Shown: one piece after another, positions 4,039 through 53,502 of the stretch
How the letters are laid out: each line of letters begins with the position of its first letter
Position numbering within the stretch: position 1 is the stretch's first letter
Assembly: GCA_024399115.1 (NCBI GenBank)
Contig: JAKSHZ010000001.1
Location: 1-64,000, forward strand
DNA from: Bacilli bacterium
Lineage (GTDB): Bacteria > Bacillota_I > Bacilli_A > RFN20 > CAG-826
Length of the DNA: 64,000 nt
Reading direction: 5' to 3'
The notes under the pieces: generated by a model
Seen by the model: only the letters and a program-made list of their open reading frames with translations
Databases searched by the model: none
Told to the model about the DNA's origin: nothing
Program-made: the position numbers and the translations under genes

Positions 4039-4470
4039 CTAATTTCTTCTGACCTCTTTTGCGAAAACTTCGACATCACAATCTAAATAGAAAGCAAGTT
4101 TATGAACTACCTTTCTCGAAGTAATCTTTCCTTTAACGATATTATAAAGATAACTCGGTTTATACCCCAAATCTTTTGAAGCGGAATTAAGCTTCTTTCC
4201 TTTCTTCTGAATCATATCAAAGACTTTAGGCCAGTCCACGATGTATCCACGGATCCAAGAAATAGACTTACTTTCTCCTTCCTCATACATAATGATATCC
4301 TCAACTTTACAGTTAAGAAACTTACACATCTTTTCCAGTGTAGAGAAAGTGATAGGTTTATTTCCGTTAAGTCTTGCTCTTAATGAATAATCATTAAACT
4401 CAGCCATAAGCTGTTCCAAAGTAATGTTGCGATGAGATAAGGTATTTCTTAAAGGTTTATAATTTATCAT
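4039..4470 (-). CDS. tandem HTH (XRE/Cro-type) transcriptional regulator
   Basis: 143 aa. Residues ~1-60 (ITLEQLMAEFN..., ITFSTLEKMCKFLNCKVEDI) match the Cro/C1-type HTH class with the LNCxVEDI ending. Residues ~75-140 look like a second, more distant copy (LNSASKDLGYKPSYLYNIVKGK, LDCDVEVFA). Two DNA-binding units in one chain are unusual. It is last in a minus-strand chain with short overlaps (4457-5434), so it probably regulates that operon or a nearby promoter. GGGAG serves as SD. Confidence 0.7.
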   Translation of the reverse strand: MINYKPLRNTLSHRNITLEQLMAEFNDYSLRARLNGNKPITFSTLEKMCKFLNCKVEDIIMYEEGESKSISWIRGYIVDWPKVFDMIQKKGKKLNSASKDLGYKPSYLYNIVKGKITSRKVVHKLAFYLDCDVEVFAKEVRRN

Positions 4471-4945
4471 TGAACTCCCAGTGGTACTTACCGTTGTAAT
4501 ACCAGCTTTTAATAATGTCTTTATCTTTCAGTGTTTCAATCAGTTCTTCCATCTGCCTTTTAATCTTGAATAGCTGCTCGTTCTTCTGCTGCAGTTTCTT
4601 AATCACATTCCCCTGATTATAGATAATCATCTGAGCATCTGGTCCGGCATCCTTACATTCAAGCATATCCACTTCCGACTTATCAAGGCTTACCGAGTAT
4701 CTTCCCATAAGTCCTTTAATATAATCATCAACAGGAAGCACAGTATTAGACTCTTCGATAAAAGAACTAGTCATACTTGCATTCAGCTCACGACACCTTT
4801 CCCTCGCATCTTCCTCGCTTTTGAACCAGCCTACAACCTTATCACTGCAGGGTTCCCATTTATTACTTTCTAAAGGAAACCAGCCTTTATTTGTACGGTA
4901 ACAATACCAGCTATACTCTGGTGTCCAGCAACTATTCATTTCCAT
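4457..4945 (-). CDS. unknown protein with aromatic N-terminus and coiled coil
   Basis: 162 aa. The N-terminal 35 residues are rich in Trp, Tyr and Cys (SCWTPEYSWYCYRTNKGWF) and the region ~110-145 is a short coiled coil (VIKKLQQKNEQLFKIKRQM). Start is the ATG at 4945 behind AAGGAGTGATAG. It overlaps both neighbours by 14 bases, which indicates translational coupling. Function not recognised. Confidence 0.55.
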   Translation of the reverse strand: MEMNSCWTPEYSWYCYRTNKGWFPLESNKWEPCSDKVVGWFKSEEDARERCRELNASMTSSFIEESNTVLPVDDYIKGLMGRYSVSLDKSEVDMLECKDAGPDAQMIIYNQGNVIKKLQQKNEQLFKIKRQMEELIETLKDKDIIKSWYYNGKYHWEFNDKL

Positions 4946-5207
4946 CTATCACTCCTTTCACAGCCTTTACTAATTTGTCCTTATCCTTACTCTTTGCATA
5001 CCAGCACTTAATTAAATGTATACCAAGAGATAAAGCAAATCCACCTGTCATTCTTATGCCACCCATATAATGCATGAAGTCTTCCTCACTAAGTTCTTCA
5101 CCTTCTCTCTTATGATTAATGTTATGATACAGCTTCAAATCTATATGGTCACTGTTCTTAAGAACTCCAGTCTTCATCAAATAATTTCCTTCACCCAATA
5201 CTATCAT
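4932..5207 (-). CDS. unknown 91-aa protein
   Basis: I place the start at the ATG at 5207 (MIVLGEGNYLM) because AGGAGAAT lies just before it and the ATG overlaps the upstream TGA as ATGA. An in-frame ATG 18 bases further upstream lacks an SD. The sequence contains a GGIRMTGGFALSLGIHL glycine-rich stretch that could be membrane-associated. No family recognised. Confidence 0.5.
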   Translation of the reverse strand: MIVLGEGNYLMKTGVLKNSDHIDLKLYHNINHKREGEELSEEDFMHYMGGIRMTGGFALSLGIHLIKCWYAKSKDKDKLVKAVKGVIDGNE

Positions 5208-5434: not shown

Positions 5435-5536
5435 ATCTATTCCTCCTTTCAACATAAATAACACTTGCTTATTACTTGTATTCTATCCAAAAATCTCCAG
5501 TTTAACAATCTTTACAGACATCATTCTGTTATATTT

Positions 5537-5566
5537 TTGTATAAAGAATTGGTAATTTTATATAAT
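5537..5566 (+). promoter_or_regulatory. candidate sigma70-type promoter toward the non-coding region
   Basis: TTGTAT (5537-5542), 18-base spacer, TATAAT (5561-5566). It points right, toward the structured RNA and the plus-strand genes from 6690. Confidence 0.45.
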
Positions 5567-5949
5567 TTTATGATGCCCACCAAGATTCTTAATAAAGACA
5601 ACAACGCCCCCTTACCCCTCCTTTTACTAAGAAAATAGGTCCGCAGGACCCCGAAAAATTCGTTTCAGAAAAAATCAGGTGGCATGATTAAAACAAGACC
5701 CCCTAAATAAAACACCCCTAATTTTAACGTAGAGGCCCTTAAAAAGGCTTAAACGATAAATTATTCAAAAATCGCTATCCGATGCGTCAGCGTGAAGATA
5801 TCAGCGTCTCAGAGGTATTTTTACTCAAAACAAAACAAGTGTTTTTTATTCGTTTTTCTAAACACTTAAAAATAGTCTAAAAAAGTAGACAGTTATCATC
5901 AGTTTTCTCACTTTTTTCACACAGTTAAATCAGCTTTTTGTCAGTTTCA
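5567..5949. other. gene-free stretch with C-rich tracts and small inverted repeats
   Basis: No ORF with an SD is visible on either strand. It holds C-rich runs near 5607-5725 and an inverted repeat AAGTGTTT (5837-5844) / AAACACTT (5860-5867). It may be leader sequence for the RNA that follows; nothing more can be supported. Confidence 0.35.
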
Positions 5950-6630
5950 AGGGGCTTAAAGTGCCAAAAATCGGGTTCAACAATTTGTGGGACAAGTCCA
6001 CAACGTGTTGATCGTTCCCGAGACCCCGGGGGCGTTATATTTGGTTGGTGTAAGGGGGTAACACAAAAACGAAACGAGCAAATGCTCACTGTTCTTTGAC
6101 ATTTCTAGGGTATGGTCTTGAAAAGCAAGTCCGTTGGACTCTTGCGAAAAAGTAGTGGAAGTTAAAAAGTATGGGATTTGATGACAAGCGATGATGAGTA
6201 GATTTTCAAGACAAGATACTAGATTACTAGGGTATGAGAAAGTTTGACGGAAGTTAAAACCGATGAATGAACGTAAAGTTCAACGTAAGTTCACAGAAAG
6301 CACTTGCCCGGGCGTGATACTCAAGGGCGGCGGCGTAATCGGCGAGCACTAGCAAACGAACACAGAGATAAAGTGTAGAAATACTACAAAGGTAGTGTTC
6401 CAAGGTCAGTGGGGTACTCGCACCCCTAATGGCTAAAACTACCAAGGGGTTACTATGTCCAGTTGGTCTGGTTGTGGTAACCATAACATCGAGAACTTGT
6501 TCGGCATAGTCCGAAGCAAGCCAATGACGACAAGTGAGTAAGCAAGCAACTCTGATAGCAAGTAAGGCAGAGCCGGTTCCGGCATAGTCCGGTGCATCCT
6601 CACGGGGTTCAACTCCCCGACTGCCTCATA
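5950..6630 (+). ncRNA. large structured non-coding RNA candidate (GOLLD/ROOL-like context)
   Basis: This stretch is richer in G+C than the flanks and has no SD-led ORF. It contains many plausible helices: GAGC/GCTC (6076-6087), a perfect long-range 10-bp helix GTCTTGAAAA (6115-6124) with TTTTCAAGAC (6203-6212), a nested GGTTAC/GTAACC stem (6448-6453/6477-6482) enclosing CCAG/CTGG, and two hairpins with the same CATAGT loop (6501-6514 and 6579-6592). It ends in a tRNA-like element. Known large phage RNAs, GOLLD and ROOL, have this size range and lie next to tRNAs in phage genomes. I infer membership of that broad type only; I cannot match a consensus by eye. Confidence 0.45.
6565..6627 (+). 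ncRNA. miniature tRNA-like element 1
   Basis: Acceptor-like helix AGGCAGA (6565-6571) / ACTGCCT (6620-6626), 6 of 7 pairs, next to a canonical T-arm: CGGGG stem, TTCAACT loop, CCCCG. Only 31 bases lie between acceptor and T-arm, too few for normal D and anticodon arms; they hold one CCGG-CATAGT-CCGG hairpin. It therefore is not a standard tRNA. A tRNA mimic or the end of the large RNA are the main readings. Confidence 0.5.
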
Positions 6631-6689
6631 ACCCGTATGGGTGAATATATTAAACACAAAAAAGCACCTTAGGTGCAAGGGAGTCAATT

Positions 6690-7061
6690 ATGACAAAAGC
6701 AGAATTCAGAAAATTAACAAACGGAACACAGGTAACATTCAAATGGGCAGGTAAGAAACGCACAGGCGTATTCCAGTACTTTTCAAGCAAATATCCAACT
6801 AAGGCACTCATTCTCTGGCAGAAAGATAACGAAGACAAACCACACAATCACCAAGTATCATTCCAAGCACTTCACACACCAGAGTCAGACAAGGCAGACA
6901 AGGCAAAGGCACTTGCAGAAGCAAAGGCAAAGGCAGAACGCAAGGCAGAACGTGAAGCAAAATCGGCAGTAAAGGCACAGAAAAACCTCGACAACGCAAC
7001 AGACTTTGAATTACTCAAGGCACTTGCAGACCGTCTTGGATACTCTGTAGTGAGCAAATAA
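6690..7061 (+). CDS. unknown protein with Ala/Lys/Glu-rich helical tail
   Basis: 123 aa. The first ~65 residues form a compact domain (FRKLTNGTQVTFKWAGKKRTGVFQ), and residues ~66-105 are a long charged helix of repeated KA/AKAxAERKAE units, likely a coiled coil or nucleic-acid-binding arm. SD AAGGGAG. First gene of the plus-strand small-gene block and directly downstream of the large RNA, so it may be read from the same transcript. A CACACCC/GGGTGTG hairpin follows at 7068-7085. Confidence 0.6.
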   Translation: MTKAEFRKLTNGTQVTFKWAGKKRTGVFQYFSSKYPTKALILWQKDNEDKPHNHQVSFQALHTPESDKADKAKALAEAKAKAERKAEREAKSAVKAQKNLDNATDFELLKALADRLGYSVVSK

Positions 7062-7087
7062 TAAAACCACACCCGTAAGGGTGTGTT

Positions 7088-7138
7088 AGCGAGAACCGAG
7101 TACCGAAAGGACAAGGGGTTCAACTCCCCTACTCGCTA
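7088..7138 (+). ncRNA. miniature tRNA-like element 2
   Basis: Acceptor-like helix AGCGAGA (7088-7094) / ACTCGCT (7131-7137) and a T-arm AGGGG-TTCAACT-CCCCT (7114-7130). The insert between them is only 20 bases with a small CC-GAAA-GG hairpin. It has the same A-A mismatch at the base of the acceptor as element 1 at 6565, so the two are related by design rather than random tRNA fragments. Confidence 0.5.
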
Positions 7139-10980: not shown

Positions 10981-11663
10981 TGGATAAATATATGCCAGTT
11001 AAGTATTGGGTTGAAGATAATGAATTACATCGTGCCTACTTCGATAGAGAAGAAGATTTGTACGATAGTCCAAGAGATTTGGGTAACTTTGGAACAATGG
11101 TTTGTGGACATCCCAGATACAATCTCGGTGATATACAAGTAAAGACAAGAGAAGAATGGTTTGCAAACAAACCACTCAAAGCTGATACTCTTGTACTTCT
11201 TCCACTTGGACTTCTCGACCACAGTGGTCTGGCTATGTACATCGGTGGTGTAACAGACCCTTGGGATAGTAGTGAAGTTGGTTACATCTTTGTTCGTAAA
11301 GATAATCCCGAAGTAGTTGATTACAAGAAAACTCACACTTGGAAAGAAACAAAAGAATGGGCAGAAAACATCTTGCGTAGTGAAGTTGCAACTTATGATG
11401 CTTATCTTCACGGTGATGTTTATTACATCACAGAAGAAAAGTATGACGAAGAAACTGAAACTTGGGATAATGTTGACGGATATGGTGGTGTATATGTTGT
11501 AGATGATACATATCAGAAAGAACTGGAAAATGCAGTTTCTCATATTAAAGAATTCTCCGGCAACCACGAACTTTTCGATGAAGATGTAGCAAACGATGCA
11601 ATTGAACATCACACAATTGACATTCTCTGTGGTCAGAAAGTATTTGAGTTTATGGAGTCGTAA
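10980..11663 (+). CDS. conserved unknown protein, 227 aa
   Basis: Starts within the TAATG of the previous gene. The region GNFGTMVCGHPRYNLGD at about residues 36-52 is typical of a conserved phage/plasmid family of unknown function. Three acidic-aromatic segments follow (EVATYDAYLHGDVYYITEE, YGGVYVVDD). No catalytic motif can be assigned. The stop again overlaps the next ATG (TAATG). Confidence 0.6.
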   Translation: MDKYMPVKYWVEDNELHRAYFDREEDLYDSPRDLGNFGTMVCGHPRYNLGDIQVKTREEWFANKPLKADTLVLLPLGLLDHSGLAMYIGGVTDPWDSSEVGYIFVRKDNPEVVDYKKTHTWKETKEWAENILRSEVATYDAYLHGDVYYITEEKYDEETETWDNVDGYGGVYVVDDTYQKELENAVSHIKEFSGNHELFDEDVANDAIEHHTIDILCGQKVFEFMES

Positions 11664-13380: not shown

Positions 13381-13441
13381 TCTTTAACAATATGAGTAGC
13401 AAATGACAGTTTACAAGTTAGAAAACTTCAAGGAGAATATA

Positions 13442-14716
13442 ATGACAAACTTCTTTCTGAACAAACTATTCACAACACCAGAACTGCTTGATAAATACAC
13501 AAAGAAAGCGATTGATAAGCATATCAATAAGGCAATGATTAACAACTCGTTTTCTAATCAGAACGACTTGAATATCATCTATCACAAAATCGCAGACGGT
13601 CAGTACAAAATTGCACCAAGTCATATGGGTGAAGTACCTAAAGACGATGGTACAATGCGTACTGTTTACATCAACGAAGGATTTGATAGAGTCCTTATTG
13701 CTTACTACAACGATATGTTCTTTCAGTATTGCTCTGAAAGAATACATAAACAGTGTAAGTCTTATCAGACAGGAATTGGGACAGGCAGAGTTGTTAAGGA
13801 ATTAATTAAATATATTTCAGAATGTAAGTCAAACGACATAGGTGCAAAACTTGACTTGTCTAAGTACTTCGATACACCACAAATCGAATACATAGATAAG
13901 GAGTTTGCTTACATCGAAAGTAAGTTCGGTGAAGATGCCGGGTTAAATGCTCTTAAAGAGTTCTATCATATGAATTGGGTATTTGACTTAAAAGGCAACT
14001 TGGTTGAACACTATCACTCTTTAGGACAGGGAGTAAGTACTGCTAGTTACTTAGCAGATGCACTGCTCTATCACATCGACAAAGAAATCTCTGAAAAGTA
14101 TGACGTTTATTACGTCAGATATTCTGATGACATTTGTATCATCGGTAAAGAATGGAAGAAAGCCTTTGATAGAGTTTCTGAGATGTTGAATGATATGAAC
14201 CTTACTCTTAATCCAAAGAAGATAGAGTTCCTTACAAAAGATAAATACTTCAAGTTCTTAGGTTTCTCATTACGTAATGAAGATATAACAATATCTAAAT
14301 CACGTCTTGAGAAGTTCAAGAAAGAGATTATCAAACTGACACTTAAGTCAAAACGTAAGACATTAGACGGTGTTGTTCACGATGTAATCTACTTCCTTTA
14401 CGGCAAAGGTGATTACTCTTGGGCAACTTCAATGTTGAATACGATTAATGTTATTGAAGATATCCAAGAGCTGAACAGTTTTGTAATGGACTGTATTCGT
14501 GGTTGGTACTTCAATAAACGGAAGATCAAGTTCATTGGTAATCTTGGTTATGAGAATAGACTTGATAAGAAAGGTGTTGTTACTCGTGGAACAGGTTCTG
14601 CTGTTACTACAATGAGAACAAAGATGCCTGAAATTAAAGGCTATCTCAGTCTTGAAATGATGAGAGAGTTAATGATTATGGATAAACGTATCTACAAATC
14701 TAAACTCTCTGCCTAG
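13442..14716 (+). CDS. reverse transcriptase associated with a tandem hairpin array
   Basis: 424 aa from the ATG at 13442, chosen because AAGGAGAATATA precedes it; the frame extends 39 bases upstream without an SD. RT motifs in order: KLDLSKYFDT (first catalytic Asp, residue ~138), SLGQGVSTASYLADALL (~193-209, the QG motif of palm/fingers), and VRYSDDICII with YSDD at 227-230, followed by LNPKKIEFL and FKFLGF. These residues are those of an active polymerase. No endonuclease, maturase or other enzymatic domain is visible; the C-terminal ~150 residues are a basic, helical thumb-like region. It is not clearly of the DGR, group II intron or a retron type I can name. The gene is followed at once by two copies of a hairpin repeat unit and, three genes later, by four more, so these RNAs are the likely templates or partners. 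Confidence 0.85.
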   Translation: MTNFFLNKLFTTPELLDKYTKKAIDKHINKAMINNSFSNQNDLNIIYHKIADGQYKIAPSHMGEVPKDDGTMRTVYINEGFDRVLIAYYNDMFFQYCSERIHKQCKSYQTGIGTGRVVKELIKYISECKSNDIGAKLDLSKYFDTPQIEYIDKEFAYIESKFGEDAGLNALKEFYHMNWVFDLKGNLVEHYHSLGQGVSTASYLADALLYHIDKEISEKYDVYYVRYSDDICIIGKEWKKAFDRVSEMLNDMNLTLNPKKIEFLTKDKYFKFLGFSLRNEDITISKSRLEKFKKEIIKLTLKSKRKTLDGVVHDVIYFLYGKGDYSWATSMLNTINVIEDIQELNSFVMDCIRGWYFNKRKIKFIGNLGYENRLDKKGVVTRGTGSAVTTMRTKMPEIKGYLSLEMMRELMIMDKRIYKSKLSA

Positions 14717-15062: not shown

Positions 15063-15080
15063 TGATGTTAAGGAGTGTTT

Positions 15081-15533
15081 ATGACAATCTATGAACAGTT
15101 AATTGACGGAGTAACAAAAGGTCAGTCGTATTACATAAACTTCAAAACTAGGGACTTGAAATTGAATAAGAAGTTCTTGGTAAAGAATGGTAAGTATGAC
15201 GGTGAATATGGGTTCCTGCCTTGTAAGGCTAGAGAACATATCGAAGAACTGTTTGATGAATATTATTTTTCAAATAGTTGTGAACGAAGTGATATGAAAT
15301 CCACATACTTCATTGCTCTTGATAATGAAGAGATAAGTATAGAAGAAGCCGTATGTGGTGAAAGTCGCTTCATAGCACAAGCAAAGTTGGAAGGATATGT
15401 ACTTGGACTAATTCTAAGTAACTGTCCTTGGTCAGAAATAGCCTACAACGAAAAGGATTTTGTATGGCAATCAAAAAATAATAAGAACCTAATTGTATGG
15501 AAAGAATGGTTCAAGGAGATGAATGATGCTTAA
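15081..15533 (+). CDS. unknown protein in the RT locus, 150 aa
   Basis: ATG at 15081 behind TAAGGAG; a GTG six bases earlier overlaps the SD and is not used. The sequence (MTIYEQLIDGVTKGQSYYIN, FLPCKAREHIEELFDEYYFS, ESRFIAQAKLEGYVLGLILS) shows mixed alpha/beta content and no recognised motif. It sits between the two blocks of hairpin units and overlaps the next gene by 11 bases, so it belongs to the RT operon. It could be an effector or accessory factor; that is inferred from position only. Confidence 0.6.
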   Translation: MTIYEQLIDGVTKGQSYYINFKTRDLKLNKKFLVKNGKYDGEYGFLPCKAREHIEELFDEYYFSNSCERSDMKSTYFIALDNEEISIEEAVCGESRFIAQAKLEGYVLGLILSNCPWSEIAYNEKDFVWQSKNNKNLIVWKEWFKEMNDA

Positions 15534-15795: not shown

Positions 15796-16884
15796 ATGGC
15801 AAAAGTAATTTGTAAAGTTTGTGGTGCAGAAATGGATTTACCAAATCATGGCGAGATGTGTATCGGTGCTTTCAACGATACAACTGACAATGTAGTTGGT
15901 GTATTACCAACAAGATTACCAAATGATAAAGGAGATAAAAGAACTATGGAAATGATTAGCAAGGTTGACGCATTAAAAGCTGCTGGGTTCACAGAAGAAC
16001 AGATTAACAAAATGATTGGTATTGTTGGCTTCAACAAAGATGAAGTCATTCAGAGTGATGCAATCTCTGAACAGATTTTTGCAAATCGTGGTGCGATGAA
16101 CACAGTTTCATTCAGACGTAAGATTACAGCACAGTTCTTGAAAGCACACTTTTGTTACAAAGGTGGAGTTCAGGAATACATCAACAATAAATCTTACAAT
16201 TGGCAGTTCGATATGATGCTCGAAGAATGTAAACAGTTGATGAAAATGGAAAGCAACTGTGATAAAGAACTTGATATTCGTAAATCGTTCTTCTCACTCA
16301 GCTTAATTAAAGATGTAGTAGAACAGTACAGTGAAGACTTGCTTCACTTCATCACAGAAAAAGAACGTAATGACAATAAGAAATGCAAAGGTGTTCCTTA
16401 TGTTAAGTACATCGGTTTGAAAGGTCGTGGGTTCTATAAGAACTGTTGTTTCAAAAGCGACATTATTTCACGTATCTACTCTCCACTTTGGCACTATGTG
16501 TACAACGTTTCTAAAGCATCTACTTACAAAGAAATGTACACTGCCCTTTACCACTTTGTTAACTCTATGGAATTCATTCCACTTCCAAACAACTATCCTA
16601 AGTCTAAGAAATGGATTGACGCATTCAAAGGTGCAGGTGCTTACTACTCTATGATGAACTTATCACAGAACTCTGACTTGAAAATCAGAAATTATGAAAC
16701 AGGTAAAATTCTTAACAAATACGATGCTCGTTGCTATCTTGAAAGTATGTCGAGCAATTGTACAGGTTATGAATTGTATGGTCAGTTCAAACAGATGCTT
16801 GAAGATAACAGCTTTACTATGGACAATTTCATAACTCTCTGTAAACAGACAAAAGAAAAACGTTTGGCTGAATTAAACAAATAG
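15796..16884 (+). CDS. unknown 362-aa protein in the RT locus with N-terminal CxxC
   Basis: SD AAGGAGAAA, ATG at 15796. The N-terminus VICKVCGAEMDLPNHGEMC has a CxxC and a later Cys that could bind zinc. A UBA-like or helical segment follows (ISKVDALKAAGFTEEQINKM), then about 280 residues rich in aromatic and basic residues (YVKYIGLKGRGFYKNCC, RIYSPLWHYVYNV). No enzyme motif is visible. The four-unit hairpin block starts right at its stop codon, as the two-unit block starts at the RT stop. This arrangement makes it the best candidate partner of the RT, perhaps an RNA or DNA binder. No homolog recognised. Confidence 0.65.
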   Translation: MAKVICKVCGAEMDLPNHGEMCIGAFNDTTDNVVGVLPTRLPNDKGDKRTMEMISKVDALKAAGFTEEQINKMIGIVGFNKDEVIQSDAISEQIFANRGAMNTVSFRRKITAQFLKAHFCYKGGVQEYINNKSYNWQFDMMLEECKQLMKMESNCDKELDIRKSFFSLSLIKDVVEQYSEDLLHFITEKERNDNKKCKGVPYVKYIGLKGRGFYKNCCFKSDIISRIYSPLWHYVYNVSKASTYKEMYTALYHFVNSMEFIPLPNNYPKSKKWIDAFKGAGAYYSMMNLSQNSDLKIRNYETGKILNKYDARCYLESMSSNCTGYELYGQFKQMLEDNSFTMDNFITLCKQTKEKRLAELNK

Positions 16885-17879: not shown

Positions 17880-18142
17880 TATAAGTGGACATTTATCTTG
17901 TATGTATGGCTTGTTTAGTGGTCTCTAGCCTGAGTGACTGCATCTGTCGAAAGATATGTTGCAGATATGAACTACGTTGTTGGAAGAAGTTAAAGACACA
18001 CCTACGGATGCACCTTTAGTCCGCTGCTCTGTGAGTGCCAACCAAGAAACACTTCTAATGTCCTGAAGTGATAACAGGGAAACACAAGAGCTTACCAACG
18101 ACATTGGCAAAAAGGAAGATACCCGTTATGGAGGTAGCAGAA
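17880..18142 (+). ncRNA. omega-RNA-like region of IscB 1
   Basis: No SD-led ORF. It shares TGAACTACGTT (17968-17978) and CTGCTCTGTG (18024-18033) with the region before the second IscB, at nearly equal spacing (56 and 54 bases). A long-range helix GTTGTTGG (17976-17983) / CCAACGAC (18095-18102) followed by ATTG has a covarying counterpart there. IscB guide RNAs lie just upstream of the gene in known systems. The target-determining 5' end is not resolved. Confidence 0.7.
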
Positions 18143-19384
18143 ATGCAAAACTACAGTTTTGTAGTAGATGAAGAAAACAAACCGTTAGCACCTACTAAAG
18201 TAAATAGGGCTTGGTTTCTTATCAGAAAAGGTCGGGCTGAATTAGTCAGCAAGTATCCTATGGTAATCAAACTTAAACGAAAGGTTGAAAATCCTGTCGG
18301 TGAGTTTGTTATGGGAATTGATGATGGTTCTGCTCATGTAGGCATGGCGGTTGTTCAGAAGTGTAAGACTAAGAATAAGGTTGTATTCAAGGCAACTATG
18401 GAACAGCGTCAGGATGTAAAAAAGAGAATAGATGTAAGACGGGAGTATCGCAGATACAGAAGAAATCATAAGCGATATCGAGAAGCAAGATTCTATAACA
18501 GAGCTTCTTCTAAAAGACAAGGTAGATTAGCACCAAGTATTAGACAGAAGAAAGAATCAACTTTGCGAGTGATTAATCGTCTTAATAAATGGGTAAACAT
18601 CTCTGAGTACCACTTGGAAGATGTTGCAGTAGATATCAGGGTAATGGCAGAAGGACATAAGCTTTACAGATGGCAATATCAGAAGTCCAACAGGCTTGAT
18701 AACAACCTTCGTAAAGCAGCTATTCTTCGTGATGAATGCAAGTGTCAGGAATGTGGTAAATCAAACTGTGTATTAGAAGTTCATCATATCAGAGCAAGAC
18801 GTTATGGTGGTGCTGATACAATCGGTAACTTGATAACACTCTGTACTGGCTGTCATCAGAAAACTGAAGGAAAAGAAAGAGATTTTGAAGCGAGGTATTT
18901 TGCAATGATTGAATCTAAACCAATCAGATTTGATTATGCACAACACGTTATGCAGGGTAAAAATTATCTTCGTTCTGAAATTTCAAAACTTGGTAATTTA
19001 GTTATAACAACTGGCGGTGACACTGCAAATAAGCGGATGGACTGGAATATAGAGAAGTCGCATTCTAATGATGCAATCTGTATAACTGATTTAAAACCTG
19101 ATACTACGGATGTAAAAGAATGGACTATAAAACCTATGAGAAGAAAGTCCAAAGCTAAAACGAATAATGTGTTAGGAATTAAACATAGAGATTTAGTTTC
19201 TTATACATTTAGAAATGGTGAGAAACATATTGGGTACGTTACAGCTCTTTATCCAGAGTTGAATGCACTTAATTTTCAATCACCAACAAAACATTGCAAG
19301 AAAGTAAATGCACTAAAGTGTAAGTTACTTTGGAAGTACGACAAACTTTATTGGTTTAATTGTCAATGTTTGTCTATATATTAA
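18143..19384 (+). CDS. iscB: IscB RNA-guided nuclease 1
   Basis: 413 aa from the ATG at 18143 (SD GGAGG). Domain order matches IscB: PLMP-like N-terminus ([19 protein letters not shown], with A in place of M), Ruv[13 protein letters not shown] (Asp60), Arg-rich bridge helix [19 protein letters not shown], RuvC-II around E159, HNH with two CxxC pairs and [11 protein letters not shown] (His214/215), and RuvC-III KSHSNDA (His307, Asp310). A C-terminal domain of ~90 residues follows. All catalytic residues are present, so an omega-RNA guided double-strand nuclease is expected. No TnpA transposase is nearby. Confidence 0.88.
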
Positions 19385-27556: not shown

Positions 27557-28093
27557 ATGACAAAGTCTAAAGAGAGAATAACAAAGATTACAAAGAAAGG
27601 AGCATTTAACTTTGCACTTAATGCTGCTTATTCTGCAATCAAATACAATGAAGAATCTTTTTTCGACAGTACTACCGGCTCAAATATAGTATTCATTATT
27701 GAAAGTGTAACAGGGTTAACTTTTGAAGTCTTTAGAAAAATGGTGCTTGAATCATTAGATTATGAAAATAAGTTTGACTACGATACCGTTGTCAAAGACG
27801 CAAAGACTTTAAGTATTAAAGAGCTTGCCGCTAAACACGAATGTTCTTATGAAGAAATGAGATATTACCTGATTAGTCGCAATATCAAATACAATAAGAC
27901 AAACCCAAAACTTACACAAGAAAGAAATACTGAAAAGATTAAAGACACTGCTATCAGATTAAACGGTAAATACACCTTATCAGAACTTTCGAATATCGTT
28001 GGTATTCAGTACTCATTCGTTAAAGAAATATGTCTTCGCTATGGACTTCCATATCGCAAGACTGCAAGGAATCGTGTATCAGTAACCCCATAG
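27557..28093 (+). CDS. HTH-like protein whose end runs into the IscB 2 element
   Basis: 178 aa from the ATG at 27557 (SD GGGAG). Two HTH-like segments: LSIKELAAKHECSYEEMRYY and YTLSELSNIVGIQYSFVKEI. The final residues NRVSVTP* are encoded across the left end of the IscB element, whose hairpin at 28086 supplies the stop codon. The native C-terminus may have been cut by insertion. Confidence 0.55.
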   Translation: MTKSKERITKITKKGAFNFALNAAYSAIKYNEESFFDSTTGSNIVFIIESVTGLTFEVFRKMVLESLDYENKFDYDTVVKDAKTLSIKELAAKHECSYEEMRYYLISRNIKYNKTNPKLTQERNTEKIKDTAIRLNGKYTLSELSNIVGIQYSFVKEICLRYGLPYRKTARNRVSVTP

Positions 28094-28326
28094 CTAAAGC
28101 TAGGGGCTTGTAGCCCTTTACTGACTAGACTGAGTGATAAGCAGTGTTACTGCTTTGAACTACGTTATCTGTAAATGTATAGACACCAGTGGATGTAATA
28201 CCTAGTCCACTGCTCTGTGGTAAGTGATTAAACAAGACTGAGAGGTAGGTCTAGTGTTGCTTACAAGAAACTACAGATAACATTGTCTAAGGTATTCAAC
28301 TCTAACATACAGGAGAATTTAAAATT
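28085..28326 (+). ncRNA. omega-RNA-like region of IscB 2
   Basis: Begins at an IS-end hairpin CCCCATAGC-taaa-GCTAGGGG (28086-28106). Holds TGAACTACGTT (28156-28166) and CTGCTCTGTG (28210-28219) as before IscB 1. The helix GTTATCTGT (28164-28172) / ACAGATAAC (28273-28281), followed by ATTG, corresponds to a different-sequence helix there, so pairing is conserved while sequence is not. Confidence 0.72.
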
Positions 28327-29562
28327 ATGGTGTATGTATCAAATATTGAAGGTAAACCGCTGATGCCTTGTAAAGAGGCAAAGGCGAGGCATCTTTTAAA
28401 AGACGGCAAAGCAATCGTTGTAAGAAAAGAACCTTTTACAATCCGTTTGCTTTTTGAAGTGGATAATGTAACGCAAGAAGTTGCATTGGGAATTGATGCA
28501 GGTTCTAAACATATCGGAGTAAGTGCTACTACTGGTAGGAAAGAATTATATGCAGCAGATGTTGAGTTGAGAAACGATATCGTAGATTTGATTTCTACTA
28601 GACGTAAATATCGTAGAACTAGAAGGAACAGATTGCGTTATCGTAAGCCTAGATTCAATAATCGTGTTCACTCCAAACATAAAGGATGGCTGGCACCAAG
28701 TATCGAACAGAAGATTAACTGTCACTTAAAGATAGTTGAAGATGTACACAAGATACTTCCTGTTTCTAAGGTAATTGTTGAAGTTGCTTCTTTTGATATT
28801 CAGAAGATTAAGAATCCTAATATCGAAGGAAAGGAATATCAGCAGGGTGAACAGTTAGGATTCTGGAATGTAAGAGAGTATGTTCTGTTTAGAGATGATC
28901 ATACTTGTCAGTGCTGTAAAGGTAAATCTAAGGATTCAATTTTGAATGTACACCATATTGAATCAAGAAAGATTGGAGGAAATTCTCCAAACAATCTGAT
29001 TGCTTTATGTGAAACCTGTCATCGTGGTTATCACAAAGGAACTGTTAAGTTACCTAAGAACATTAAACGTGGTATGTCATTTAGAGATGCCACGTTTATG
29101 GGAATTATGAGATGGACTTTCTGCGAAAGATTAAGGGCTATATATCCAAATGTTTCTATAACTTACGGATATATAACAAAAAATACTCGCATAGAGAACA
29201 ATCTTCCTAAAGACCATTACATAGATGCTAGGTGTATAAGTGGTAATCCATTAGCTGAACCTTTAGGTTATGTCTGGTATATGAGAAAAGTACGCAGACA
29301 TAACAGACAGATTCATAAGGCTAAGATATTGAAAGGTGGTGTTAAAAAACTTAATCAGGCTCCTTATTTAGTTAAGGGTTTTAGATTATTCGACAAGGTA
29401 AAACTTGATAATAAATCTTGTTTTATCTTCGGTAGACGGTCTAGTGGTTCATTTGATATCAGAACTCTTTCAGGAGAAGTGATATCAAGATGTGCCAATA
29501 GTAAAAAATTAGAATTGATATCCAAAAGAAATGGATATTTATCAGAAAGGAGAAATGCGTAA
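28327..29562 (+). CDS. iscB: IscB RNA-guided nuclease 2
   Basis: 411 aa, SD AGGAGAA. N-terminal PLMP motif is intact (GKPLMPCKEAKARHLLKDGK). RuvC-I LGIDAGSKHIG (Asp57), bridge helix RRKYRRTRRNRLRYRKPRF, RuvC-II VIVEVASFD (Glu152), HNH with CQCC and LNVHHIESRKIGG (His209/210) and CETCH, RuvC-III KDHYIDA (His297, Asp300), then a C-terminal domain. Complete and probably active. It differs widely in sequence from IscB 1, so the two arrived separately. No transposase gene lies nearby. Confidence 0.9.
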   Translation: MVYVSNIEGKPLMPCKEAKARHLLKDGKAIVVRKEPFTIRLLFEVDNVTQEVALGIDAGSKHIGVSATTGRKELYAADVELRNDIVDLISTRRKYRRTRRNRLRYRKPRFNNRVHSKHKGWLAPSIEQKINCHLKIVEDVHKILPVSKVIVEVASFDIQKIKNPNIEGKEYQQGEQLGFWNVREYVLFRDDHTCQCCKGKSKDSILNVHHIESRKIGGNSPNNLIALCETCHRGYHKGTVKLPKNIKRGMSFRDATFMGIMRWTFCERLRAIYPNVSITYGYITKNTRIENNLPKDHYIDARCISGNPLAEPLGYVWYMRKVRRHNRQIHKAKILKGGVKKLNQAPYLVKGFRLFDKVKLDNKSCFIFGRRSSGSFDIRTLSGEVISRCANSKKLELISKRNGYLSERRNA

Positions 29563-43499: not shown

Positions 43500-43660
43500 A
43501 AATATGGACAAATATCCATATCAAGAAAATTACTGTTTCACCCTGTATGTTTTTGAAAACTAGAGTTTTCTACTCACAAGTTCTTGTACAGTCCACAGTC
43601 GTAAATTCCCGACTAACCATCGGTACATAGTCTATATGACTTGTTTATGCCAGTTTATAG
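43500..43660 (-). ncRNA. probable TnpB guide-RNA (omega/reRNA) region
   Basis: In IS200/IS605 elements the guide RNA overlaps the 3' end of tnpB and runs to the right end. Here the gap after the tnpB stop has no SD-led ORF until 43483 and contains inverted segments such as GTGGACTGTAC. The assignment is by position only; no family structure confirmed. Confidence 0.3.
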
Positions 43661-44820
43661 ACTTCTAAATCTCTCAAATTAAGACTTGCATTAAAATCCC
43701 TGTCATTTTCATATCCACAATCACATTTGTACCAGCGGTCTTTAAGTCTTAAGTCTGACTTAATAGCACCACATTTATGGCACATCTTTGATGATGGAAA
43801 GAATCTTCCAGCAACTCTAACTTCAATCCCAAGTTGATTGCATTTAGCAGTAAGTTTTTCTCTGAATGTATAGAAATTCTGCTCTGCAACTGCTTTTGAA
43901 AGATGTCGGTTCTTCATCATTCCTTTTACATTCAAATCTTCGATTGTTACAAACTGTGGCTTGGTTTTCACCACTTCTGCAACACAATGATTTATATAAT
44001 TGGAGTGGATATTATTTATCCTCTGATGAAGTTTCTGTACTTCAAGTAAGTTTTTCTGGATATTCTGTCTAGTAGCTTCTCCATTTTTATTGCGTTCTTT
44101 TAATGCTTCGTATTTTCTCGAAAGCGAACGCTGTTTTCTTTTAAGCTGTTTATTCAGTTTTCTCACAACGTGAGTTTTATTGATATTCTTAAAAACTCTG
44201 CCGTCACTAAGAACTGCAAAGTCTTTAAGACCCAAGTCAATTCCAATGCCTTCACCTGTCTGTTTTACTTTCTGAAAATCAGACTGTTCAACTAGAACTG
44301 AAACATAATATCTACCAGCTTTTACCGATACAGTTCCACTTTTAATAATGTATATATCAGAATTGGTTGGTATATACCCTTTCTCTTTTAACTGAACCCA
44401 TCCAAGTGTAGGTATCTTAATCCGATGTCTTTCACAAGGAATGATTGCTTTTGAATCTGTCTTTACGAAATACATCTTTACATCAGATTTTCCTTTCTTC
44501 TTGAATTTTGGAAACTTTGCCTGTTTTTTAAAGAATTTCTTGAAAGCACTTTCTGCATCCATAATTGACTTCTTTGCAGATTTAGAACTCACTTCCTTAA
44601 TCCATGAATAGTCAGAATTAGAAGGAATGAAATCATTATTAAGCCACTTTGAGAAATCCATACCGCTTACAAACTTCTTTTCTTTTTCATAAACTTCTTT
44701 GTTATGAGCAATATAGAAGTTGTAAATAAACCTGCAGATTCCGATTGTTTTATGAATCAAAACTTTCTGTTCTTCAGTAGGATTAATTTCTGTCTTGTAT
44801 GCTCTTAGCAATTTCTTCAT
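43645..44820 (-). CDS. tnpB: TnpB (IS200/IS605 OrfB) RNA-guided nuclease
   Basis: 391 aa. Start MKKLLRAYKTEINPTEEQ as in the family, RuvC-I GIDLGLKDFAVLSDG (Asp195), RuvC-II QFVTIEDLNVKGM (Glu294), zinc finger CHKC...CDCG (347-368) and RuvC-III DRDFNAS (373-379). All catalytic residues are intact. SD GGAGG sits close to the ATG. No TnpA lies in the window, so the element cannot move by itself here; it may persist as a nuclease that favours its own retention. Confidence 0.9.
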   Translation of the reverse strand: MKKLLRAYKTEINPTEEQKVLIHKTIGICRFIYNFYIAHNKEVYEKEKKFVSGMDFSKWLNNDFIPSNSDYSWIKEVSSKSAKKSIMDAESAFKKFFKKQAKFPKFKKKGKSDVKMYFVKTDSKAIIPCERHRIKIPTLGWVQLKEKGYIPTNSDIYIIKSGTVSVKAGRYYVSVLVEQSDFQKVKQTGEGIGIDLGLKDFAVLSDGRVFKNINKTHVVRKLNKQLKRKQRSLSRKYEALKERNKNGEATRQNIQKNLLEVQKLHQRINNIHSNYINHCVAEVVKTKPQFVTIEDLNVKGMMKNRHLSKAVAEQNFYTFREKLTAKCNQLGIEVRVAGRFFPSSKMCHKCGAIKSDLRLKDRWYKCDCGYENDRDFNASLNLRDLEVYKLA

Positions 44821-52377: not shown

Positions 52378-53502
52378 ATGAATAAACGACCCTTTTATCT
52401 TACCAAAAGAAAGCTCGCTTCTGGTAAAATAGTATACTATTTTTATACTTATGACAAGTTTGGCAACCGTACTGTTCCACAGTCTACTGGCTGTTCAAAG
52501 AAAACAGATGCCTTTAACTATTGTAGCTCACTTTTCAAAAAAGGCAACTTAACAAATCAAAATGTTAAGTTTAAGGTTTATGCTGCAAACTTTTTTGATG
52601 AAGAAGAACGATGGTATAAAAATAAAATGGTAGAAGGTGGTATTACAGAAAATACTGTAACCACTTATCAGATTAATCTGAGAAAATACATCATGCCTTA
52701 TTTCGGAGAGATGTATATTGATAAGATCACAACCTCAGATATCAAAGCATACAGAATCCATCTTACAGAATCAGGTCTGTCAAATAAGTCTATTAATAAC
52801 TCAGTAAACATCATTCGTATTATTTTTAATTATGCAATGGAAGATGATATCATTTATAAATCTCCAGTAAATAAAACTGTTGCATCATTGAAGGTAGAAC
52901 ATAAACGAGAAGCATTTACGGATGATGAATTGGATTATATTTTCAGCAATTATTTTGAAGATGAACGTTATTATTTATTCTTACTTCTTGGTCCATTAAC
53001 TGGTATGAGATTTTCTGAAGCCTTAGGTCTTACAAGAGAAAATATCAAAGACGGATATATTGAAATAACTCATCAGTATAACAATAACAAGATTAAGGAT
53101 ATTAAGACTAAGGAAAAAAGATTTATTACAATTCCAAAGAAACTGGAAGAAATGTTACGCAAACAGGTTGGTGACAGAACTTTTATATTCTCACAGAAAT
53201 TATTAGATATACCGATTGTAGAGTCTACAACAAGGCGAAATTTGTATAATTACTACAATTTTGAGATGTTGAGACGAAAAAAAGAGAACCAACTGACATA
53301 TCACTCATTCAGATATTATCTTAATACTTTACTATTATCAAAAAATATTCCAAAGTACAAAGTCGATTTTGTAATTGGTCATTCAGAAGGAAAAGGAAGT
53401 ATGACACAACTCTACACTACTTGGAAACCTAATATGTACGATGATGTACTGAAGGTTCAGGAAGAATTGTTAGATAGATTACTTAGTTTACGAAAGCGAT
53501 AA
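52378..53502 (+). CDS. int: tyrosine recombinase (phage integrase)
   Basis: 374 aa. N-terminal arm-binding and SAM-like core-binding domains (ENTVTTYQINLRKYIMPYFG, TTSDIKAYRIHL). Catalytic domain with LTGMRFSEALGL (Arg), TYHSFRYYLNTLL (H-x-x-R), VIGHSEGKGSMTQLYTTW (His and Tyr). Complete. No SD; the ATG lies 11 bases after the -10 box, so the leader is very short. It would integrate the phage at attB; attP is probably the region upstream. Confidence 0.9.
   Translation: MNKRPFYLTKRKLASGKIVYYFYTYDKFGNRTVPQSTGCSKKTDAFNYCSSLFKKGNLTNQNVKFKVYAANFFDEEERWYKNKMVEGGITENTVTTYQINLRKYIMPYFGEMYIDKITTSDIKAYRIHLTESGLSNKSINNSVNIIRIIFNYAMEDDIIYKSPVNKTVASLKVEHKREAFTDDELDYIFSNYFEDERYYLFLLLGPLTGMRFSEALGLTRENIKDGYIEITHQYNNNKIKDIKTKEKRFITIPKKLEEMLRKQVGDRTFIFSQKLLDIPIVESTTRRNLYNYYNFEMLRRKKENQLTYHSFRYYLNTLLLSKNIPKYKVDFVIGHSEGKGSMTQLYTTWKPNMYDDVLKVQEELLDRLLSLRKR

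Follow-up and report, generated by a model that had tools for sequence, protein, structure and literature searches.

We propose, with a probability of roughly 0.6, that a structured non-coding RNA is the first element of the rightward operon of a phage, and that host RNase P, probably together with RNase Z, cuts a tRNA mimic at its 3' end and so frees the RNA. The window (the whole stretch of 64,000 nucleotides that was analysed) comprises the initial 64 kb of a contig of 182 kb that carries phage genes (G000:C1), among them portal-like and large-terminase-like genes (91-94 kb), genes for tail proteins and a Cro/CI-type repressor gene. A stretch near the left end of the window probably encodes a large, structured non-coding RNA, about 600 nt long or longer. 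The features used are as follows.

4039-4470, minus strand: Cro/CI-type repressor gene, left of the non-coding gap
5465-6689, no strand: non-coding gap between divergent phage operons, with no plausible ORF
5950-6564, plus strand: non-coding RNA body, delimited by the rise in G+C and by alignment to the syntenic region of phage G279
6115-6124/6203-6212, plus strand: arms of a long-range helix (GTCTTGAAAA/TTTTCAAGAC), perfect over 10 bp
6448-6482, plus strand: stem-loop of the GGUUACUAU..AUGGUAACC type within the RNA body (fold z -2.3 for 6436-6482)
6496-6520, plus strand: hairpin with CATAGT loop, stem from 6501 (fold z -1.85 for 6490-6525)
6565-6626, plus strand: tRNA mimic 1, acceptor and T arm without anticodon arm
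6690-7061, plus strand: first ORF behind the RNA (123 aa), with mimics 1 and 2 on its two sides
7087-7138, plus strand: tRNA mimic 2, after the first ORF (fold z -2.8)
13403-14716, plus strand: UG27 reverse transcriptase (PADLOC profile, E 9e-131)
15075-15533, plus strand: RTas346 (PADLOC profile, E 3e-35)
15796-16884, plus strand: RTas337 (PADLOC profile, E 2e-48)

The window RNA and its tRNA mimics

The gap is bordered by minus-strand genes on the left and by a long plus-strand operon on the right. The original prediction had described coding-free, G+C-richer DNA here, and both properties were found again. G+C was mostly 0.40-0.55 across 5950-6650, dipping to 0.34 around 6150-6300, as compared with 0.35 in coding DNA and, for some of the DNA immediately before 5950, 0.24-0.28. 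The G+C-richer part (about 5950-6626) terminates in mimic 1. The 5' limit of the RNA body was set by the G+C rise and is approximate; the true start is possibly further upstream. A sigma-70-type promoter was searched for upstream of the RNA and none was found.

The predicted long-range helix is present and perfect. An inverted repeat of this quality was obtained in 13% of dinucleotide shuffles (3% within 100 nt) and is thus not rare. The two predicted CATAGT hairpins are also present. The hexaloop of the first recurs at 6583-6588 (stem from 6579), and two hairpins with an identical hexaloop occurred in only 0.2% of dinucleotide shuffles. The second hairpin competes with the D-like arm of mimic 1. 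As for the large RNA of a GOLLD/ROOL-type or new class that had been suggested, the part that stands is a large, probably structured phage RNA outside the classes recognised by Rfam; the G+C-richer stretch as a whole folds no better than shuffles (z -0.52, with 7 of 20 shuffles at least as good).

Mimic 1 reads AGGCAGA...CGGGG-TTCAACT-CCCCG-ACTGCCT. Its acceptor (6565-6571/6620-6626) has six pairs and an A.A mismatch. The T stem (6603-6607/6615-6619) has five pairs and carries the canonical T loop TTCAACT (6608-6614). Stacked on each other, acceptor and T arm form the 7+5 layers of a tRNA, which is the geometry of an RNase P substrate. Taken alone, mimic 1 folds weakly (z -1.7). Mimic 2, which the original prediction did not contain, has the acceptor TAGCGAG/CTCGCTA with the same A.A mismatch and the T arm AGGGG-TTCAACT-CCCCT. 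The T-arm motif GGGGTTCAACTCCCC was found twice, exactly, in the window (6604 and 7115), where 0.03 occurrences were expected with two mismatches allowed. ARAGORN called no tRNA and no tmRNA in the window, and neither mimic was among its calls. The tRNA-like element that had been predicted beside the RNA is real, but it is not a tRNA gene and is apparently the 3' end of the RNA rather than a neighbour.

Other tRNA-like elements were seen elsewhere on the contig. A Leu-type tRNA call whose anticodon loop has 9 nt (locus L035, 11312-11388) and another T-arm element (L035, about 11497-11580) lie at contig positions 95312-95580. The Leu-type call is followed by a CCCGTATGGGTGAAT hairpin, the same as at window position 6632 behind mimic 1. 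A tRNA gene with anticodon UUA (L035, 12868-12941; contig 96868-96941) would read the stop TAA, and sits in a phage whose genes read normally under the standard code.

Relatives in phages and in Bacteroidales prophages

At the DNA level, no homologue turned up among phages, plasmids, 95 relatives or 279 host-order genomes; matches of 20-45 nt were judged to be chance. A pattern with two GGCATAGTCC copies gave nine matches in IMG/VR, all chance or tandem repeats. The ORFs at 6690, 10980 and 4457 gave no relatives in IMG/VR, and gene 21424 had one close relative, in phage G279, and three distant ones. Related IMG/VR phages were reached via the large terminase. G279 (IMGVR_3300001598_000056) is a 61-kb phage with a terminase 69% identical to that of the window phage. 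It has about 0.9 kb of non-coding DNA, then a mimic, then an ORF and, further on, the same three-gene cassette. Its mimic has a GGCAC/GTGCC acceptor, again with an A.A mismatch, and the ORF behind the RNA is homologous to window ORF 6690-7061 (31% identity). Alignment of the two RNA regions scored 604, against at most 521 in all 60 shuffles. G279 carries the one clear homologue of the window RNA. RNAalifold on these two divergent sequences gave no informative structure. Phage G282 has a similar layout, but the alignment of its RNA region was not above shuffles; it is counted as a probable mimic-ended phage RNA. The arrangement is absent from G280.

Several observations concern the contig itself. 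It is 182044 bases long, has 37 bases in common at its two ends and is possibly circular. There are two integrase-like genes (52378-53502 and 151287-152522); tail genes that are paralogues of each other lie at 101.6-103.5 kb and across the contig ends. Past 106 kb the genes are poor matches to those of the related phages, and the contig may therefore be a junction of two phages. In the window, a RAGATH-18 RNA (43530-43599, minus strand) lies directly downstream of a TnpB-like gene (43645-44820, minus strand), where a TnpB guide RNA would be expected. A HEARO RNA (28078-28300) precedes an RRXRR/HNH-type gene (28327-29562), and a second RRXRR-HNH gene (18068-19384) is without a HEARO match.

The UG27 cassette was used as a syntenic landmark. 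From UG27 homologues, 80 viral and 29 genome loci were reached; the genome loci are all Bacteroidales, judged by title. The cassette is filed as candidate defence (DRT); here it was seen in phages and prophages. In the collection of papers searched, none dealt with UG27 reverse transcriptases or with Bacteroidales-2 RNA. At the UG27 loci, tRNA-like minihelices were found on the reverse transcriptase strand in 22 distinct cases, a few ordinary tRNAs included, and on the other strand in one (shuffles give 2-4 and 0-3, respectively). Prophages of B. gallinarum, B. fragilis, Phocaeicola, Butyricimonas, Alistipes and others have a non-coding stretch of about 750 nt that ends in a mimic and lies upstream of UG27 on the same strand. 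The RNA lies at 893-1672 in L249 and at 609-1430 in L253. A promoter-like TTTG-N19-TATA, read by eye, precedes it in L253 and, roughly, in L244.

The Bacteroidales mimic is a complete cloverleaf, with an acceptor, a D-like arm, a third arm and a T arm (z -5.3 and -4.1). The third arm has up to 9 pairs and a loop of 4-5 nt in place of the 7-nt anticodon loop. In the L221 mimic this loop has 3 nt, and the two middle arms are quite different in sequence and fold to the same shape. In the mimic alignment, 88.6% of cells were paired, against 80.4% in shuffles; two-sided changes numbered 16 against 8.0, and none of 500 shuffles reached that number. Slid structures on the same alignment paired 28-55%. 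Over the whole RNA including the mimic, 110 two-sided cells were counted (shuffle mean 36, maximum 49). These shuffles ignore relatedness, and the counts are to be read as support, not as probabilities.

The core of the Bacteroidales RNA (about 400 nt) is Rfam RF02943, the Bacteroidales-2 RNA, matched over its full length with 346-434 bits. Matches were obtained in L253 (735-1171), L264, L266, L268, L272 and L182 (1516-1905), always opposite to the strand of mimic and operon, and the model stops before the mimic. The mimic was placed on the operon strand since a T loop is strand-specific. The core has the more favourable energy on the operon strand (-124.6 against -90.6; in a second computation, -129.5 against -105.2). 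Counts of G.U against A.C were 12:1 and 15:8 for the mimic strand in two alignments of our own and, on the alignment of Rfam itself, 7:2 for the Rfam strand. It is likely that RF02943 was modelled on the wrong strand, and a boundary error is probable too. Both strands could be right if both are transcribed. RF02943 did not match the window RNA at E up to 10, nor the G279, G282, G283 and G280 records at E up to 0.01.

A cloverleaf model built on the Bacteroidales mimics only was run over 450 kb of this and related phages. Five matches had an E of 1 or less; they include the G279 mimic (E 0.03) and, at E 0.17, window 6563-6628. The same model matched 152 of 273 host-order genomes, mostly over 75-77 nt and presumably in tRNA genes, and is thus of no use as a genome scanner. 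The window and Bacteroidales RNAs have in common their layout, their place in the genome and the mimic. No similarity of the RNA bodies was detectable, and the claim is therefore of the same architecture and does not extend to common descent. The window, G279 and the Bacteroidales prophages all have at least 600 nt of non-coding sequence with an operon-strand, anticodon-less acceptor/T-arm element immediately behind it. Covariation in both mimic and RNA body was found in the Bacteroidales set only. The original prediction had named covariation, together with lack of a match to known classes, as the sign of a new class; it was obtained indirectly, via Bacteroidales RNAs that share layout and position with the window RNA, G279 being too divergent to provide it. 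A conserved phage RNA architecture is thus well supported in the Bacteroidales set and is supported in the window by synteny and the mimic.

Proposed processing and alternative readings

The RNA would be transcribed as the first product of the phage's rightward operon. Host RNase P would cut the operon transcript 5' of mimic 1, at about 6564/6565, and RNase Z would probably cut on its 3' side. These cuts would free the RNA body with a defined 3' end, split from the downstream mRNA. Mimic 2 would bring about the same separation after the first ORF. As a guess, the freed body might act in trans in the manner of ROOL or GOLLD. RNase P reads the T-stem/acceptor stack by length and not by sequence (PMC4919913). 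OLE RNA and pre-tmRNA are bacterial non-tRNA substrates of this enzyme, and the 3' ends of MALAT1 and MENbeta are made by RNase P with RNase Z at tRNA-like structures (PMC4919922). The design found in the window phage and, at the same place, in gut Bacteroides prophages suggests that such viruses use host tRNA-cutting enzymes to release an RNA.

Some mimics stand behind ORFs where there is no large RNA, so that a mimic alone is no proof of an RNA. In B. oleiciplenus-type prophage DNA (L202), tRNA-like elements at 4068-4130 (read by eye) and 4882-4961 stand on either side of one ORF, with no large RNA upstream. Positions directly behind a structured non-coding RNA and around single ORFs (window 6565-7138; L202, about 4068-4961) fit a punctuation role, and the mimics may be general border marks in such phages.

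The mimics might instead be decayed tRNA genes of a phage tRNA cluster, with the upstream stretch a plain leader or a replication or regulatory region that yields no separate RNA. The ordinary folding energy of the whole stretch, the presence of other tRNA-like elements and tRNA genes near 95-97 kb of the contig and the single clear homologue of the window RNA would all agree with this. However, decay would not preserve the 12-layer stack, the 7:66 mismatch and the position in two phages, and mimic and body both covary in the Bacteroidales set. We regard decay as unlikely. Slightly less likely still is a decoy function, in which the mimic would occupy host tRNA-handling proteins (EF-Tu, tRNA nucleases, tRNA-dependent defences) and the large RNA would be its carrier. 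A complete cloverleaf without an anticodon loop would bind tRNA partners and be unreadable and uncuttable at the anticodon, which speaks for a decoy. Against it, no target was identified, a 750-nt body would be unnecessary, and the window and G279 mimics clearly keep only acceptor and T arm, which a cutting site fits better.

The RNA could also serve the UG27 reverse transcriptase, encoded downstream on the same strand, as its partner (template or primer). The enzyme is encoded 7 kb downstream of the window RNA. In two Bacteroides-type genomes, each of the three RF02943 copies measured has it about 9 kb downstream. Some other reverse transcriptases initiate on tRNA-like 3' ends (e.g. that of the Mauriceville plasmid), and UG27 might likewise start cDNA synthesis at the mimic, so that RNA, mimic and enzyme would form a new RNA-templated phage system. 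However, the association is biased because most relatives were reached through UG27, the part of UG27 phage BS-TP1 that was examined contains no such RNA, and a mimic-ended region occurs in G282 in the absence of UG27. Known reverse transcriptase systems, moreover, usually keep the partner RNA adjacent to the reverse transcriptase gene. Both the partnership and such a system are considered very improbable. In BS-TP1 (PQ571274; L284, 2567-4063), 1.5 kb without annotated genes lies upstream of UG27; no mimic was found in it, and it has many repeated GTGGGCG/CCCAT-like words.

Least probable of all, to the point of being negligible, is the membership in GOLLD or ROOL put forward in the original prediction: size, phage origin and the tRNA-like neighbour fit (PMC12286853), but neither Rfam model matched, at the gathering score or at E up to 10.

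Significance and comparison with known RNAs

If release by the host enzymes is right, at least two distant phage lineages close off a large non-coding RNA with a tRNA that lacks an anticodon, the bacterial equivalent of how MALAT1 ends, and the same device marks ORF borders. An uncharacterised Rfam entry would gain definable ends, testable in Bacteroides fragilis Q1F2 or B. gallinarum DSM 18171. Bacteroidales-2 itself gains a 3' end and, probably, a corrected strand. Further phage RNAs could be sought by a simple signature, a mimic that follows non-coding sequence.

The Bacteroidales RNAs of RF02943 have the layout, genome position and mimic of the window RNA; the Rfam model differs in being on the opposite strand and without the mimic, and leaves the window and G279 RNAs unmatched. 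GOLLD and ROOL are phage RNAs as well, large (600-900 nt) and structured, frequently found close to tRNA islands and of unknown function (PMC12286853). The window RNA is also large, phage-borne and next to a tRNA-like element. It differs from them in having no sequence or structure match and in ending in an anticodon-less mimic, where they have a neighbouring tRNA gene. Like tmRNA, it is large and has a tRNA-like domain in which acceptor and T arm are present and the anticodon is missing. In tmRNA, however, the acceptor strands form the two termini of the entire RNA, with a reading frame between them, whereas the acceptor of the phage mimic closes a compact unit of 50-75 nt, and ARAGORN finds no tmRNA. 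In MALAT1/mascRNA and MENbeta/menRNA, the 3' end of a large non-coding RNA is followed by a tRNA-like structure cut by RNase P and RNase Z (PMC4919922). Those are animal nuclear RNAs without homology to the phage RNA, for which cleavage at the mimic is inferred; the best Rfam match of the T arm, below threshold, was mascRNA-menRNA.
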